From the NCBI GenBank assembly GCA_944990035.1, contig CALYLX010000058.1, positions 124,001-188,000 on the forward strand: DNA of 64,000 nt, in the 5' to 3' direction. The notes under the pieces are model-generated. The model did no database searches, was not told the DNA's origin, and saw only the letters and a program-made list of their open reading frames with translations. Every line of letters begins with the position of its first letter. Position 1 is the first letter of the stretch. Of the stretch, positions 50,350 to 58,463 are shown piece by piece. The translations under genes were made by a program, and so were the position numbers. Source of the DNA: Clitopilus passeckerianus (lineage: Eukaryota; Basidiomycota; Agaricomycetes; Agaricales; Entolomataceae).

Positions 50350-51617
50350 TTAATTAATACCGACCTTACTCATAAGCTCTGCAAGGTCGTCGGCAGCCTT
50401 CTCTACAGCTTTCTTGTCCTCCTCCCTCAACTCGACCTTCGAAAGGTCAGCCGGGGCTTTGACAGGCTCTACGACTGCAGTTCCAGCTGCTTCTTCCTCT
50501 TCTTCCTCTTCCTCCTCCTCTTCGTCGGTTGCAAACAGTTTTCCGCCTCTCTGCTTCAGGCTGAGTGCAAGGGTCTCCAAATGCTCATCATCATCCTCCT
50601 GGTCGTTATCCTGAAGTTCCAGTCTCATGAGACTTGCAAGCCCAGAGGTGATAGCGTCGGCGAGCAGGGAGAACGTCTGCGACTCCAAGTTGTTGTTCTG
50701 CAGCTGCAAAGTGTGCAATTTCCCATTTGATCCCGTCGCCAGTGCAGAGAGCAAGATCGGGACCTCTCCCTCATTTGACAGCACACAATCCGAGAGATTG
50801 AGCGTATGCAGCTCTGGCCACGACTGCAACGCCTCTGTCCAGGCTTCCAAACCCTTCGAGGCGCCATCCTCCGTGAAGGTGTTATCCTGGAAATCGACAT
50901 GCCGCAGGTTGGGGTTCTTCGCAAGCCCCTTCGCCAGCGCCGTTATACCGTCCATACGGATACCATTTTGTGGCATCCTGACCTCCTCAAGTCCTTCATG
51001 AGCAGCGAACGCATCGGCCCAAGCATTGGCTGATCCATTCTCCAATCGATTTCGACCACATATCAGTGTTCGTAGGTTTGATTTCTTTCCCTCGGCTTTG
51101 CTTAGCTCGGCCGATTTGAGGAGGGCGTTGGCGAGGACTGCACCGCCTGCTGGTCCGAGGCCGTTGTTGTTGAGTTTGAGGATTTGGAAGGAGCGGTTCT
51201 GGGTGAGGAGGGGGACTATTGGGTCGACTGATCGACCACCGAAAGCGTTGTCGGATAGGTTTATCTCCACGAGGGATGTTTTGTCTTTGAGAGCATCGCA
51301 GATCGCGGTCAGAGCTTGGGGTATTTCTGAGATCAGACGTCCGGTAAAGATATCTGCGAAATCGGCGATCTGTAATGAGAACTCGTTCAGAAACGAGACT
51401 TTTGGAGTACATTAAGCAGTCGCACCTTCAGAGCCTCGGTCTTCTTCAGGAAATCAGCAAGTTCTTGTGATGCCTCGATGCCAATGGTGTTGCCTCCGAG
51501 ATGGATCTCTTCAACCTTTGTAGGGTCATGAGATGCGAGGTGAGGCTTAATATCCTCCCGGGTATCGAGCTTTAGGCCCTTTCCATTGATTGACAAGACC
51601 TTTGGATTAGAAGCCAT
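50350..51617 (-). CDS. RNA1: Ran GTPase-activating protein (RanGAP)
   Basis: Exons 51617-51426 and 51369-50350 (intron 56 nt) give 403 residues starting MASNPKVLSINGKG. It is a leucine-rich repeat protein of the Rna1 type: V-E-E-I-H-L-G-G-N-T-I-G, L-V-E-I-N-L-S-D-N-A-F-G-G-R, L-K-L-N-N-N-G-L-G-P-A-G-G and the invariant catalytic Arg region (I-C-G-R-N-R-L-E-N-G). An acidic run of about 13 Glu and a charged tail close the protein. It stimulates GTP hydrolysis by Ran on the cytoplasmic side and thus powers nuclear transport. The transposon starts about 110 bp upstream of the ATG, inside the promoter. Confidence 0.95.
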
Positions 51618-51735
51618 TATGGATGCAGTCGTGGTATAATCCAAGCAATGCCGAAGTGCGTTCAATCAAACCAAAAAAGTTGGTCAAATGGGTTTATCAA
51701 TTCGCAATCAATATCGCCATTAGAGATAAGATATG

Positions 51736-51764
51736 GGCACTTTAACTATAGTTGGGGGTTCGCG
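51736..51764 (+). repeat. left terminal inverted repeat
   Basis: 29 bp, starts GGCACTTTAACTAT; directly preceded by the target duplication AAGATATG. Confidence 0.9.
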
Positions 51765-52038
51765 AAGCGTTTCGAAAAAATTAATTAATTAATTGCCGAT
51801 GGAGCGAGGGAGAACGGAAATTAATTGATGAGGTACATGTACTACCGTATCGTAGCAACCACCAGCCCGACGAGACCAAAGAAATCGGCAGGAAATCAGT
51901 GAACGGGTAGCCTTACCAAAGAAAAGTATTGATTATATTGCAATTGAGTATCGGAATGCGTTTCGTAGACTGCAAAATGTTTTCCGAGTCAGAATTAGCA
52001 CTTGAACACCTACACAGACAGAAATATCAAACATACCT

Positions 52039-55000
52039 TCATGAACCGCTTGCACTGGAGCCAGCAAAGTTTGGACAGTAGTGTTCTCCGCCTCTCCCCT
52101 TACATTTGTCTCCGCCACAGCAAAGACAAGTTCGGGGCTTGTGGTACATCACCCGTGATAGGCCCAAGTTTGGACCTGGATGAAAATCACTTGGTTGAGC
52201 CCGTTTCTTCCCCTTGTCACGAGAGCCTGAGGATGCTGACCCTGCAGCCACTGGCAGGGTTTGTTGGAAACGGTGCGCTGAAGAATTCTTGAACACAAGT
52301 GCAGTCGGAGCCTGACTACCAGTGCTGCTTCTAGGTCCACTCTGCTCTGCCGGTGGGTTGGATGTATTGATCATTGTCCAGTCAGCGGGTATAGCTGGAC
52401 GTGGTAGCGGGAGAGCCGTGATTTGAGCAGCAACCAGAGTACGCTCAGCAATTGGGATAGGTGGGATAGCAGAGCGGTCTGGAGTAAGATTAGAGGCAAC
52501 TTGCTGGAATGTAGCACGATAGGGTTCGAAGCTGTTCTTCTCATTTCTTGTTTCCAACCATGATTTATAGAAGTTCTTCAAGTGTTCAGGAAGCTAATGG
52601 AACAAATATGGAGCACTTAGTTAGTACTATCAACGTATGTTCAAGTACTACATAGACATACCTTGTAGAACACTTTTACTCTGTCAGATTTTGCAGACCA
52701 TTGAGCGGTCAATGTTATCCAATTTGGCTTTAAACCATGTGTAAAGGGACCATCCGGCCTGAGGAACTCTCTGAACAAAGCATGTTCCTCTTGGGTGTGG
52801 ACGGGAGAACAGCAAACCGAGTTTCTTGTTGTATAGCAAGGTTATAGTGGCGGATTTTGTTGTCTTTGGCATGCTGAACGGAAAAGCTGTCCATACCAAG
52901 GGTTTGTTTGGAAGCAGGAGACAGAGGAAGAATACCAAAGGTCTCCCGGGATGGTCGGTAGTTAGTACCGTTGACCCACCCAACAAGAGAAGGTTCCAGG
53001 GTAGTTGGGTCAAACATGTCTCGAGTAACATCGATAAGGTCTGCAAGGTGGTTCCGAGTCCAGATATCAAATGATCCTTGAAACGGCTTTCCTGTGCGGT
53101 TTAGAGTCCCAACCTAAGTAGTTTAGAATGCCACTGTACTAAGCTTGTAAGGATAACAGTACTTACTACAAGGTTGTGATGACTGCAGTAATCACGAAGG
53201 AGGTTGGCTGCAAACTGCGGTGAGGCACAATATGAGCCAAAGCGCCTTGCTATGTTCTGGTGCACCCCACCCTCAACTCCATTTGTGCCCGAAGACAGTG
53301 ATAGAGTTGAAGACCAAACTTGTCTTTGCGATCGGGAGTGTAGAGTTTGACTCCACATGGGTCAGAATAGTAACCCGCATGGATGTTCTCAAGGATGTTC
53401 TTTGCCTTCAAGAATGATGCTTCATTGAAAAGTGGCTGACTGGTTGTCGCATCAACAAGTGGTCCATAGGTACGGATGACCTGTGCAACTCGAGGAGCTA
53501 GAACATCGGCCCGGGGACAAACCGTCGAACACGCTTCCAGACCCAGTTGGACTTCCAGAGAACCATCTGATCCCAGGTGATACCTTGAGTAGCTAAGAAC
53601 CGCTCTACTGCAGCCTTATCCTCTGGGTCCGGAATGAAAATAGCATCACGAAGAGCCCGGGCAAAGGCATGACGCAGACCATGAGTTCGTGAAATCTTGA
53701 ACTGATCCATAAGATGCCAAATGTCCCCGAGCACTCGTGAGCGTAACTCTGGGTCTGAGTAGAGACCAGAGACGGTAGCTGCAGTAGTGGCAAGGGCAGC
53801 CGGGATGTATTTGTCTGCCAGAGACATTGCTGCAGAATCAGCAGCTGATGATGCTGTCAACTGCTCGGTCTCCGCATCGTGGCTGATCAATGCTGGCCAT
53901 TGAAGCCGCTCAATATCATCCATACTCTCCTCCTCAGATAATAAGGAGGGATCAGGATGGGGCTCAATACCTTCAATAGGATCAGAGTAGGGATCATGGT
54001 TGGGAGTGTAAGGGTGGGGTGGAAGGGGGCAGCGGGGTAAATCACGAACAGGTGCAATACCAAGTGCTATTTGAACATCCCGCATATCACAGAGCATCCG
54101 GTAAGGAAGAGGCTGAGCCACTTCAGAGATAGCTGTGTCCGCTTTCGAGGGTAATAGGGCACCTCGGACCAGGTATGCAGGTTGGATAATGGCCGTAATA
54201 TTGATGAGAGTGCGGGTGCGGGTGACGTTCACACCATTGTGCTTCTTGACGCTTGCACGATCTGGTGCAACGTAGCCAATGGCCACAACAGAAGAGCCAT
54301 CCCGTGAGAGCAACTTCACCTGAGTGCCAGGAGGGGTGTCAAGGGATATGGGACGCTGTGAGGCCACACTGGTGATGTGCTCTTGGAGGGTCCAGGTTGC
54401 ATATCCGTCAAGGCTTGCATACCGAATTGCATCACTGGATAGTTCATCCTCAACCCAGGCTGTACTAATGCGAACAGTTTCATTCTTGGAAATGTATCGC
54501 TTCAACAGAACGCCAACAAGATCCTGCAGAGAGGTGTTGGATCTTTGAGTCAGGTTGCGTTCATGGGCCATAGCGCCAAGCTCAATGGCTCCAGAAAATG
54601 GAGGGATGTCACGTTTTGTGTCAAACCCACAGTTTTTGAAAAGCCGGGTGAAGTCAGCTTTAATATGGACACCGTATTTTCGGATCCGAGGGCTTCGAAG
54701 CAAGGCCAGCAAGGCTGAGGGAGGGTTGAGGTATCCAGTGGCTGTAAGAGGAAGTTTTGAAAGCTATAAAGTATTTAATTGATGAACATAGTTGCAGTCA
54801 ATGCAGCTTACACAAATAAGATAAATCTTCTTATCCACAACAAGTGTAACAACGGCAACGTAACCCTGGATTCCTTCATCGACCGGCCATTCCATGTCCA
54901 TCCCCACATCAAAGTATTCTCCATCTCCAAGCCGACTAACCTGCTCCATTACGAGATTCATCTGGAAGGTGATCTGGAATGATGACTCCAGAATAACGAT

Positions 55001-57473
55001 TGTCCAGTCCAAAGGTATGACAAGGGCATCCAGTGTAGTCGATGACAGTATAGGCTTGACATCACGACGAAGAGACGGAAACACTTTCTCGAGCTCTGCC
55101 TTGTCACCCCGAACATTATCTGTGAAGACCAGTTCAATATCATCATGGCCATACTCTCGAAGAGAGTGAGGAATGGTTGCCAATGCCGGCATGAACTGGT
55201 TGTGGGCCTTTGTGGGAGTGAGGGTCATGGTTCGAACCTCGTTGTACTCATTGATGCCGGTATGTAGAGCACCAAAAACGGGCTCGCCGTTCACCTTCCC
55301 GATGTGCTTCGAACCTGGAAAACAACGAGCACCTTGATAAGCACCCATATGATGTGTTGGAGAAAGGTTCATACCTTGAAACTGTGGTCTATCGTCAGTA
55401 TCCGGCAAGACAGCATTGCCATATGTTGGTCGATCTCGCATGCATGTCTTTCCATAAATGCATTGTAGAGATCTCCAAAGTAGCGCCCTGAGGGGACGTA
55501 ACCTGCATACTTAGCACGGTCATTCCACAGCCCAAACCGGGATGCTGCACTAGCAGTCCTCTTATGGACTCAGTTTCCATCCGACTTTTCACGAGCTCGT
55601 AGTACAGCAGCTGGAGTTTTTCATGGCGACGAATGTAGAATGTACGAATCATGGCCGCAAAGGGAGATGGCCCATGACCGCGTTGAAAGCTGGATCGAAG
55701 GAGAGCAATCAGGCGGTCGGTAACACCGCAACGATGAGTGAGGTAGAATGTGAATTGTGAGGCAACAGCAGGGGAAGGGCATCGAGGAGGGCGGGTGACC
55801 AGCTTTGATAAGTCTTCTTGCATTCCGAGCGTCCGCACTTATATCGGTACCCGATGATATAGATGTTCTGGTCAATGTCAACAATTCTTCGAGGCGAATC
55901 CGTCCAGCCGTTGAGCTGCAATGCGACAGGTATGTGATTCCCAGCTGTTCGCCCAGCTTTGCGACACTCTGGGCACGGGATGCTCTGGTTGTCGACAAAG
56001 AAATGCGGAAGCCATACGAACCAGGTAGGTTCATAGAAGATCTCGGGTTCAATTTGAAAGATGCGTGCGGCCTTGAAGAGCGGATTTTTTGGCCGAATGA
56101 AGAACGATCCGTTCTCATAGCAGGATGGCTGCTTGGAACGGTTCCTGTCGGCCTCCTCACGGAGGTGGGTGCAGATTTCCTTGTATTTGGATTTGAGCCA
56201 GTGGGGTAGCGTCGAGTTCGGTTGTTTGCTCGTTGCGGGAGACATCTCGTCGTCGTCTGGGAGGGTCCCGAAGTTGTCTGCTTCGTCCTCTCTGTCCTCT
56301 CCTTCGCCCTGAAAGGCATCCGTGCCACCCACTCCCAAATCCTGGTCCAACCCACCGTCGAAATCATCGAAATCGTAGAAATCGCAAGTGAGCTCCACCG
56401 GCTCCGGTGGAGCTCTAGAAGTTACATCCGGCAGCGGATGTAACTTCCTCTGGTTTGTTGGAGCTGCTGGTGTTCCTGCTGAGCAACGGTTAGCGTCAAA
56501 ATCCAAGCAAATAGTGAAATGCAACTCACTGGTGCCGAAAGCGCGATGCTCGTGCCGTACGTCTTTGTCACGTAGCCTGGGGTCGACTACATTGAGTTCT
56601 GGGTAGGAAATAGGTGTTAGCATGCTTATATATCTTCGATAAAGTGAAATGAACATACCTGGATTGGCCGGCTCTTCTGTGAGATCTCTCCCTTCCATCG
56701 TGCTCTTATTGGCAGTTGCCGGCCTCTTTCCTTTCTCTCCAGTCGTGGTATTTGCTTGGTTTGTTACTAAGATATATTATTAGAATGTAAGAGTGTCAAT
56801 TTTACCAGAGAACATACATGGTAGTTCAGTAGGTGTGCCATGGCGTTCACTTGCGGCGACGCTGGTAGCACGCGAATGAGAAGAGAAAAACCCTAGGTTT
56901 GTTAGTCAGGGAGGCCTTCGAACATATGTTGAGTGATCACATACCTTCGAGCGATATCTGCCTTGTATTTCGAGGCGGATAAATAGCAGGAGATGAGTCG
57001 CGAGACTCGCTGCCTGATCCAGTCTGAGCACGAGACAAGCGCTTGTCAGGGCGCTTGTCAACGGCCGCGCTTGGTGCATTTGGCAAAGGTTCGGCCACTA
57101 CAACAGGTGGCGAGGCTGCTGGGGCATGCTGAGCCAAGGGAGTTGTGCCAGGCTCGTTGTCTGTAGGTGGGATGGATCAGAATCTCGTTTGGTTGCTCTT
57201 ACACGTGCGTGAACGTACCAGGAGCCGTGATTGGCTGGCAAGAGGCCTCGACAGCCTTGTTATGGGCGTCTGATTGATGGAAGCAGCTGTCAGCGCTGCG
57301 TGGACTGAATAAGGTTGCCAACACTCACCTGGAGCCGTGCTCGATGCTGCCACCCTGGCCTTTGCAGGTCGGCCAACGGGCCTTCCGGTCGCGGAAGGGG
57401 CGCCTTTCCTATTCTTGGTCCCTTTCGGGCGTCCTGGACCGCGTTTGGTCCTTTCAGTCGCGTCTTGCTCCAT
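52039..57473 (-). CDS. transposon protein: AT-hooks, DUF6729, WRN-like 3'-5' exonuclease, Cys-rich tail (four 1-nt frameshifts)
   Basis: The first exon (from 57473) has two AT-hook motifs (RGPGRPKGT, GRPVGRPAK). After several exons with low-complexity sequence comes the DUF6729 region: paired Cys (C-P-E-C; C-G-R-S-E-C), WSPALLDALP, IDHSF (55389), FTDN (55120). A 3'-5' exonuclease of the DEDDy class follows with its motifs intact: GMDMEW (54890-54898), K-A-D-F-T-R-L (54653) and YASLDGYATW (54407). Then TNGVEGGVHQ (53272) and a C-terminal Cys-rich finger (C-L-C-C-G-G-D-K-C). Single-base shifts occur near 55742, 55566, 53515 and 53289; one extra G or C in an existing short run repairs each. The exonuclease and DDE-like parts are recognised by motif order; the length is about 1,600 residues. 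Confidence 0.82.
56390..56447. repeat. two adjacent perfect hairpins inside the transposon coding sequence
   Basis: 56390-56401 pairs with 56404-56415 (12-bp arms, loop CT) and 56418-56430 pairs with 56435-56447 (13-bp arms, loop GCAG). They follow each other within 2 bp and lie within the exon downstream of the AT-hook part. Confidence 0.85.
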
Positions 57474-57550
57474 AAGAGGACGTGCTGATTGTTGGTTGTC
57501 GTGAGCTGGTCGTCGTTGACAGATGGCCGCCTCCTCATTGCCTAAATTAG

Positions 57551-57584
57551 TAGTTAGCCGGAACATTAATAGTTAGCCGGAACA
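57551..57584. repeat. subterminal direct repeat of the transposon
   Basis: TAGTTAGCCGGAACA occurs twice (57551-57565, 57570-57584), between the gene start and the right TIR. A candidate binding site for the element's own protein. Confidence 0.7.
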
Positions 57585-57640
57585 CGAGGACTTAAAGTTA
57601 CTCAAAAGAGTAAGTAGACTTAAATTAATAAATTAAGTCT

Positions 57641-57669
57641 CGCGGGCCCCCAGCCATAGTTAAAGTGCC
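57641..57669 (-). repeat. right terminal inverted repeat
   Basis: 29 bp, matching the left end in 25 positions; the four differences are all transitions and in each the left end has A or T. Directly followed by AAGATATG. Confidence 0.9.
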
Positions 57670-57826
57670 AAGATATGAGGAATCCTACAACGCAACGGCG
57701 ACGGCGGATCTCAGTTTGTATTTAAAGTGGGCGAAACTCAAACATGTTAACAGTTTACTGCTTTCTTTCTAACCACCATCATCAGTAAGTACGACGAATG
57801 CTGATAGACCCTGAGACCGCCCGCTC

Positions 57827-58463
57827 ATGTGCAAACTAGTGACTGAGACTGCCACTTTTGCTTCTGGTTGCTTCTGGGGTGTCGAGCACATATTCCTCAA
57901 GCATTACAAGGGCAAAGGTATCATTGACTCTCAGGTCGGATTTACTGGTGGCAACCCAGACATCAAGGATCCAAGCTACGAGCAAGTTTGCAGGGGCAGC
58001 ACTGGTCATGCTGAGGCTGTGAAGATCATCTTCGATCCTAGCCAGGTCAGCTACGCCGAGCTCGTCGGTAAGTCGTCTTTGCGGCTGGGTTTCTAAATAG
58101 CTGGGCTAATGTGTCTTCAGAGTTCTTCTACCGCACCCATGACCCTACCACCGTAAACAGGCAGGGTGGTGACATCGGAGATCGTAAGTGGTCTCCAAAT
58201 TCCATTGGCGACTGCAGATTAATAAAGTCATTATATTCGTAGAATACCGCTCCGCCATCTTCACCTACTCTCCCGAGCAGGAGGCCACCGCCAAGAAGGT
58301 CACTGAGGAAGTTCAGGCCAAACACTTCACACCTAAGGGCAAGAAGATCGTCACGGAGATTACCCCCGCGGTGGACTGGTTCGATGCAGAGGAGTATCAT
58401 CAGGAGTACTTGTTCAAGAATCCCAACGGTTATCAATGTGCTTCTCATAAACTTCACTGGTAG
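57827..58463 (+). CDS. msrA: peptide methionine sulfoxide reductase A
   Basis: Exons 57827-58067, 58121-58183 and 58243-58463 give 174 residues. The active-site motif GCFWGVEHIF with the catalytic Cys is at residues 14-23; Q-V-G-F-T-G-G and R-G-S-T-G-H-A-E-A-V follow, and E-Y-H-Q-E-Y-L near the end. It reduces methionine-S-sulfoxide in proteins and free form with thioredoxin. Length is that of the cytosolic fungal enzyme; no targeting peptide. A GTAAGT at 57784 in the leader could start a 5' UTR intron. The transposon ends about 150 bp upstream of the ATG. Confidence 0.95.

Follow-up and report, generated by a model that had tools for sequence, protein, structure and literature searches.

A recently active Dada-like DNA transposon of Clitopilus passeckerianus, probably moved by its own DDE protein with a nested exonuclease

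A window of 64,000 nucleotides from the mushroom Clitopilus passeckerianus (NCBI GenBank assembly GCA_944990035.1, contig CALYLX010000058.1, positions 124,001 to 188,000 of the forward strand) contains an element of 5934 bp whose sole gene, on the minus strand, combines DUF6729 with a 3'-5' exonuclease. In all likelihood it is a Dada-like, exonuclease-bearing DNA transposon with recent activity, moved by its own DDE protein, into which the exonuclease is inserted. An original prediction, made from the letters of the window, had described a complete transposon and had proposed its protein as a probable mobility enzyme. The protein very probably is the mobility enzyme of a transposon family, because many copies exist, target site duplications (TSDs) flank all 16 full-length copies, element-free alleles are present, and related families share both the gene and the terminal inverted repeat (TIR) motif. 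These data define, for an exonuclease-bearing Dada-like element, the exact ends and TSDs, together with many insertions and with alleles that lack it. We found no such data for these elements in the literature, of which excerpts were consulted here and in the comparisons below; fungal Dada elements with TIRs may exist in Repbase. The open-licence papers searched contained nothing on DUF6729. The present results suggest that this orphan domain, together with dozens of mushroom proteins labelled 'hypothetical' or '3'-5' exonuclease', belongs to transposases.

Genomic copies and target site duplications

The TIRs of the window copy are identical at 25 of 29 positions, and AAGATATG lies directly outside both of them (Table 1). 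No further site resembling either TIR, at up to seven substitutions, occurs within the window. The host genome assembly (64.8 Mb, 160 contigs) served as search space and gave at least 41 matches to the element, the best 37 of 42 candidates being scored. The matches listed include 16 full-length copies, along with diverged relatives and with pieces that are shorter, truncated or interrupted. The full-length copies of this family, named family A and numbering at least 16, are near-identical and end at the same TIR edges as the window copy; no full copy ends outside them, and the predicted ends are thus confirmed to the base. The TSDs are perfect and mutually different in 16 of 16 copies, 14 of them being 8 bp and two 9 bp long, and the further copies with other 8-bp duplications that had been anticipated do exist. 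A single 8-bp flank match has a chance of about 1.5e-5, so that TSDs at all 16 copies are not due to chance. Three more two-ended insertions, interrupted or deleted, have the 8-bp TSDs TCTAGCTT, TCTCGAAG and GTCCGAGC. At locus L010, an extra right end of 152 bp (L010:1357-1508) abuts a full copy outside its end, and both lie within one TSD.

A 28-base TIR pattern gave 45 matches listed genome-wide at zero mismatch, all in element copies or remnants, and two matches at three mismatches, namely a lone end and a diverged copy (family C, below). This search added two tandem family-A copies on contig C18 to those listed first.

No target motif is evident in the 18 insertion sites with 8-bp TSDs. 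Rfam gave no match at gathering score in the 16 family-A loci, with about 1.5 kb on each side, or in 17 element-free alleles. Of 20 insertions, one has a tRNA found by ARAGORN, at a distance of about 590 bp; the bacterial setting was used, with which some fungal tRNAs may be missed.

Element-free alleles and deletion derivatives

The flanks of 20 insertions (16 of family A and the four of the related family B that have TSDs) were joined, with 50 bases from each side and one TSD, and searched for in the same assembly, the best 40 of 58 candidates being scored. Matches spanning the junction, 85-99% identical, were obtained for 13 of the 16 family-A sites and for all four family-B sites; none was among the matches listed for L004, L008 and L014. 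The element is absent from all 17 stretches. The target sequence is identical in 11 of these alleles, and substitutions or short gaps occur in six. The empty allele of the window site, for which the original prediction had proposed looking in another strain, was found in the same assembly (C139:1619658-1619817); it has a single AAGATATG, and 157 of 159 aligned positions are identical to the joined flanks. As element-free alleles occur in the same assembly as the insertions, it seems that both haplotypes are present and that the insertions are polymorphic.

Two insertions, on contigs C126 (L018, TSD TCTCGAAG) and C142 (L019/L023, TSD GTCCGAGC), have the same 334-bp deletion, which includes the Glu motif of the DDE triad. 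They also share two substitutions absent from the three full copies compared, and about 7 kb of other DNA splits the C142 derivative. Because the Glu-less form stands at two sites with different TSDs, the derivative appears to have been moved in trans after the motif was lost. Deleted copies sharing the TIRs, which had been predicted as short ones, are thus represented by these two insertions, but no short derivatives resembling miniature inverted-repeat elements are among the TIR pattern matches listed.

Domains and motifs of the protein

DUF6729 (E 7e-5) and DNA_pol_A_exo1 (E 1.8e-4) were both matched on the minus strand, as the original prediction had it; in the window's own exons both matches are below the Pfam curated cut-offs, while four of seven scanned relatives pass the cut-offs for both domains. 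Conserved motifs, a profile alignment and a fold comparison support a catalytic core of the DDE type, within which the exonuclease would be an insert. The second putative catalytic Asp follows 70 residues after the first, the motifs of a DEDDy exonuclease lie between this Asp and a DxxH motif, and the Glu motif comes last. Exonuclease-free animal relatives align with the fungal proteins across the exonuclease insertion point, and one of them has a predicted fold like that of ISCth4, a transposase of the IS256 family. That the DEDDy exonuclease is itself the transposase is hardly credible: it is the sole enzyme recognised by Pfam and its active site is conserved, yet a complete DDE triad surrounds it, and the animal relatives keep the DDE core without any exonuclease.

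The paired cysteines of the DUF6729 region are probably zinc-binding, and the N-terminal CCCC motif corresponds to C205, C208, C251 and C256 of the read-through translation. The stretch beginning GRPKGTKN near the N-terminus resembles an AT-hook.

Table 1 Features of the element and their positions in the window.
Feature	Position	Strand	Observation
Left TSD, AAGATATG	51728..51735		Single in element-free allele
Whole element	51736..57669	-	16 genomic copies share exactly these end bases
Left TIR, 29 bp, begins GGCACTTTAACTAT	51736..51764	+	25/29 identical to right TIR
C-terminal cysteine knuckle, CxxC-x4-C-x8-C	52075..52134	-	Like motif in last 120 residues of 23/63 relatives
Stretch missing from deletion derivative (C126, C142), includes Glu motif	53217..53550		Two insertions compared
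DDE motif 3, GTNGVEGGVHQN, putative catalytic Glu	53254..53289	-	E in 55/57 relatives, 3 gapped
DxxH motif, LGDIWH	53699..53740	-	Relatives' alignment
DEDDy 3'-5' exonuclease motifs, nested in putative DDE core	54392..54913	-	Between second Asp and DxxH
Exo III, YASLD	54392-54433	-	Exonuclease motif
Exo II, KADF	54638-54673	-	Exonuclease motif
Exo I, DMEW	54887-54913	-	Exonuclease motif
DDE motif 2, VFTDN, putative second catalytic Asp	55100..55138	-	D in 58/58 relatives, 2 gapped
DDE motif 1, ILTIDHSFK, putative first catalytic Asp	55375..55404	-	D in 54/54 aligned relatives with a residue, 6 gapped
DUF6729 match	55772..56050	-	Cysteine pairs CPEC (within 55946-55981) and CGRSEC (within 55799-55852)
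N-terminal AT-hook-like stretch, GRPKGTKN..., likely first exon	57402..57446	-	GRPK/GRPR in relatives' consensus
Right TIR, 29 bp	57641..57669	-	TIR comparison and genome-wide TIR pattern search
Right TSD, AAGATATG	57670..57677		Single in element-free allele

These parts suggest how the protein could work. It would bind the TIRs, probably through its AT-hook-like, DUF6729 zinc and C-terminal zinc parts. The RNase H-fold DDE core, as read from motifs, profile alignment and fold comparison, would cut and join the DNA, with the target staggered by 8 and sometimes 9 bases, as the TSDs show. The exonuclease module is of the WRN type; its position is between the second Asp and DxxH, and it would most likely trim 3' ends during or after transposition, as was proposed for Dada in 2013. 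Defective copies may also be moved in trans, to judge from the deletion shared by two sites. The insertions are dispersed, and the 18 sites examined show no evident motif.

A profile search of solved structures gave exonucleases and a few weak, unrelated chains and no transposase, an absence from which we draw no claim. A second profile search, for relatives, scored only those candidates that shared most words. Proteins P0086-P0115 are the exonuclease-free animal-type relatives, and in one of them, P0114, there is a precomputed OTU domain (PF02338). One hit of the second search, the DUF6729 protein P0081, bears the label of a Legionellaceae metagenome bin and is probably (fungal) contamination.

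Related families

The six copies of family B, each about 6.12 kb long, are 99.5-99.97% identical and have TIRs starting GGCACTCTAACTATGG. This family carries the same gene as family A, with 66% DNA identity to that family, and its 8-bp TSDs are clean in four of the six copies. The other two, L032 and L035, have ATGGAAAT on one side of each; either recombination between copies or an assembly chimera could account for these flanks. Family C, on contig C139, is a lone copy with both ends recognisable and without a TSD. Family D, on contig C146, consists of the gene and one recognisable end; a second end was looked for and not found there. The ends of families B, C and D agree with those of family A at 19-24 of 29 positions, and TIRs and protein diverge together from A to D. 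Separately, a perfect inverted repeat at L043:50-6569 has arms of 368 bases that flank the aligned part of the family-D gene; it differs from the GGCA-type end.

It is very unlikely that a non-autonomous, gene-carrying element was moved here by an unrelated hAT or KDZ (Zisupton) transposase. TSDs of 8 bp do occur in hAT and KDZ elements (PMC12730594), and this likeness is shared; the element ends of family A, GGCAC...GTGCC, are a difference from both. The protein has a DDE triad of its own, every one of the 45 TIR matches listed at zero mismatch belongs to a copy or remnant of this very element, and the TIRs co-diverge with the protein. No transposase family, hAT and KDZ included, is among the Pfam matches of six open reading frames of the window and of seven relatives. 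The DDE motifs and the TIR search led us to reject a KDZ or hAT carrier.

Comparison with Dada and other transposases

The same domain order was reported by Kojima & Jurka in 2013 for Dada of Laccaria bicolor and Ectocarpus siliculosus (PMC3706591), where the exonuclease was proposed to process cleaved 3' ends. Like Dada, the protein has a DDE triad in which the second D is followed by DxxH and, as in some Dada elements only, a DEDDy exonuclease between these two; an N-terminal CCCC, a putative C-terminal zinc motif and introns are also shared. The D-D spacing is 70 here and 68 in Dada-U6_DR, and the order of short spacings in the CCCC motif differs from that of Dada-U6_DR. In the C-terminal motif the last spacing is as in Dada-U6_DR, whereas the third ligand is Cys instead of the His of the Dada CCHC. 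Dada elements with clearly definable ends target small RNA genes and have TSDs of 6-7 bp, and no TIRs were found in them (PMC3706591). Here, the TIRs are 29 bp long, while Dada-U6 and Dada-U1 have subterminal repeats only (PMC3706591); the TSDs are 8 bp in 14 and 9 bp in two of 16 family-A copies; and the sites are dispersed, without a small RNA gene as target, in contrast to the snRNA or tRNA genes of Dada. In the excerpts of that report, the termini of the Laccaria and Ectocarpus elements are not given. The enzyme is thus of a known, Dada-like type, and at the DNA level the element behaves as a variant; a categorically new superfamily was considered and dropped, as the nested exonuclease layout is already published (PMC3706591). 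This branch, inserting at dispersed sites, indicates that target specificity is separable from the transposase type.

Two other systems resemble the element in part. In the KolobokD lineage of Kolobok, a DDE transposase of the C/DxxH type is accompanied by a DnaQ-fold exonuclease (PMC9587614); this exonuclease is DEDDh, while the one here is DEDDy, and the TSDs of Kolobok are TTAA. IS256, represented by ISCth4, shares with the element the RNase H fold predicted for the DDE core of the exonuclease-free relative, the 8-bp TSDs, and a 6-bp spacer between abutted ends, seen here in one tandem. It differs in being bacterial and in that copy-out was shown there, where this genome offers the single 6-bp-spacer tandem. 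The IS256 family is not known to have an exonuclease or DUF6729.

Several observations weigh against a Dada-like element moved by its own DDE protein. The kinship with Dada is one of motif order, not of alignment. The ISCth4 fold match comes from the model of an animal relative and not from the window protein, and the structure matches shown for a whole fungal model are of the exonuclease type. The flanks are unmatched in two of the six family-B copies. By our own judgement, none of the 16 family-A copies is frame-intact, as assembled, at all affected runs, and decay of the frame-broken copies is possible.

In the assembled window copy, single-base length differences interrupt the reading frame at about five positions, most of which are in C or G runs. 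The breaks point to homopolymer read error in the assembly rather than to decay, because five of the family-B copies differ by one substitution column and by seven indel columns, every one of which is within or next to a short base run. In the sixth copy there are 25 further substitution columns. Many run-length differences also separate the copies of family A. In the parts alignable with A, families C and D keep a consistent frame. A programmed frameshift at a C run common to A and B was rejected, as run length varies there in both families and the aligned parts of C and D read in frame. In the youngest copies (L001-L016 and L031-L036), runs that differ in length by one base are more numerous than substitutions, a pattern suggestive of homopolymer errors.

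Tandem copies and route of movement

Contig C18 (C18:40428-52306, L039-L041) has two family-A copies arranged head to tail; CTTTTT separates them, and CTTTTTGTG flanks the pair on either side. The spacer is identical to the six bases with which the right flank of the tandem starts. A junction pattern, with ends at most 30 bases apart and no mismatch, matched this tandem only in the assembly, and the site has an empty match at C111:707972-708054 (99%).

Cut-and-paste is the usual assumption for hAT- and Mutator-like elements. Ordinary cut-and-paste by the same DDE protein is, on balance, the probable route: the core is of the DxxH type, and the C18 tandem could be a nested insertion. No footprint was seen, which speaks against it, but the 17 element-free alleles cannot show one, because they are probably on the other haplotype.

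Copy-out/paste-in is a doubtful alternative, in which, as with ISCth4, a circle with its ends 6 bp of donor flank apart would insert and leave 8-bp TSDs. The order copy-CTTTTT-copy precisely fits such a circle recombined into a resident copy, and for ISCth4 a 6-bp junction gives the most efficient integration, with TSDs of 8 bp (PMC7780238). Moreover, GCGAAT stands between tandem Dada-U1 copies and makes up the final six bases of an apparent 8-bp flanking repeat, CTGCGAAT (PMC3706591). The two C18 copies are identical at five of five variable sites, but this agreement is weak, because their haplotype is present in 7 of 16 full copies. There is a single tandem, which a nested second insertion with a 6-bp duplication would also fit, although 6 bp is unusual among these copies; another Dada-U1A pair is in tandem without extra bases (PMC3706591); and no circle was seen. 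For Dada-U1, a 6-bp TSD was preferred over the apparent 8-bp repeat partly for the 6-bp tandem spacing and partly for the pair without extra bases (PMC3706591). From these few cases, the circle model would explain both the 6 and the 8 of Dada-U1, and by itself not the second pair.

A broader idea is more doubtful still: exonuclease-bearing Dada-type elements might be eukaryotic copy-out/paste-in transposons with 6-bp-junction circles and 8-bp duplications like IS256, the 6-bp TSD of Dada-U1 being a circle-junction spacer inside an 8-bp TSD. If copy-out were true, an IS256-like pathway would exist in fungi, and the nested exonuclease would act on 3' ends when circles form or the donor site is repaired.

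Neighbouring genes

To the left of the window copy is a minus-strand gene with a likely ATG at about 51617, 118 bp away, presumably of the leucine-rich repeat (LRR) type and RanGAP-like. To the right, a gene that we take to be MsrA-like starts at 57827. The insertion (window 51617-57827) thus lies inside what would be a divergent promoter of about 270 bp between these two genes.
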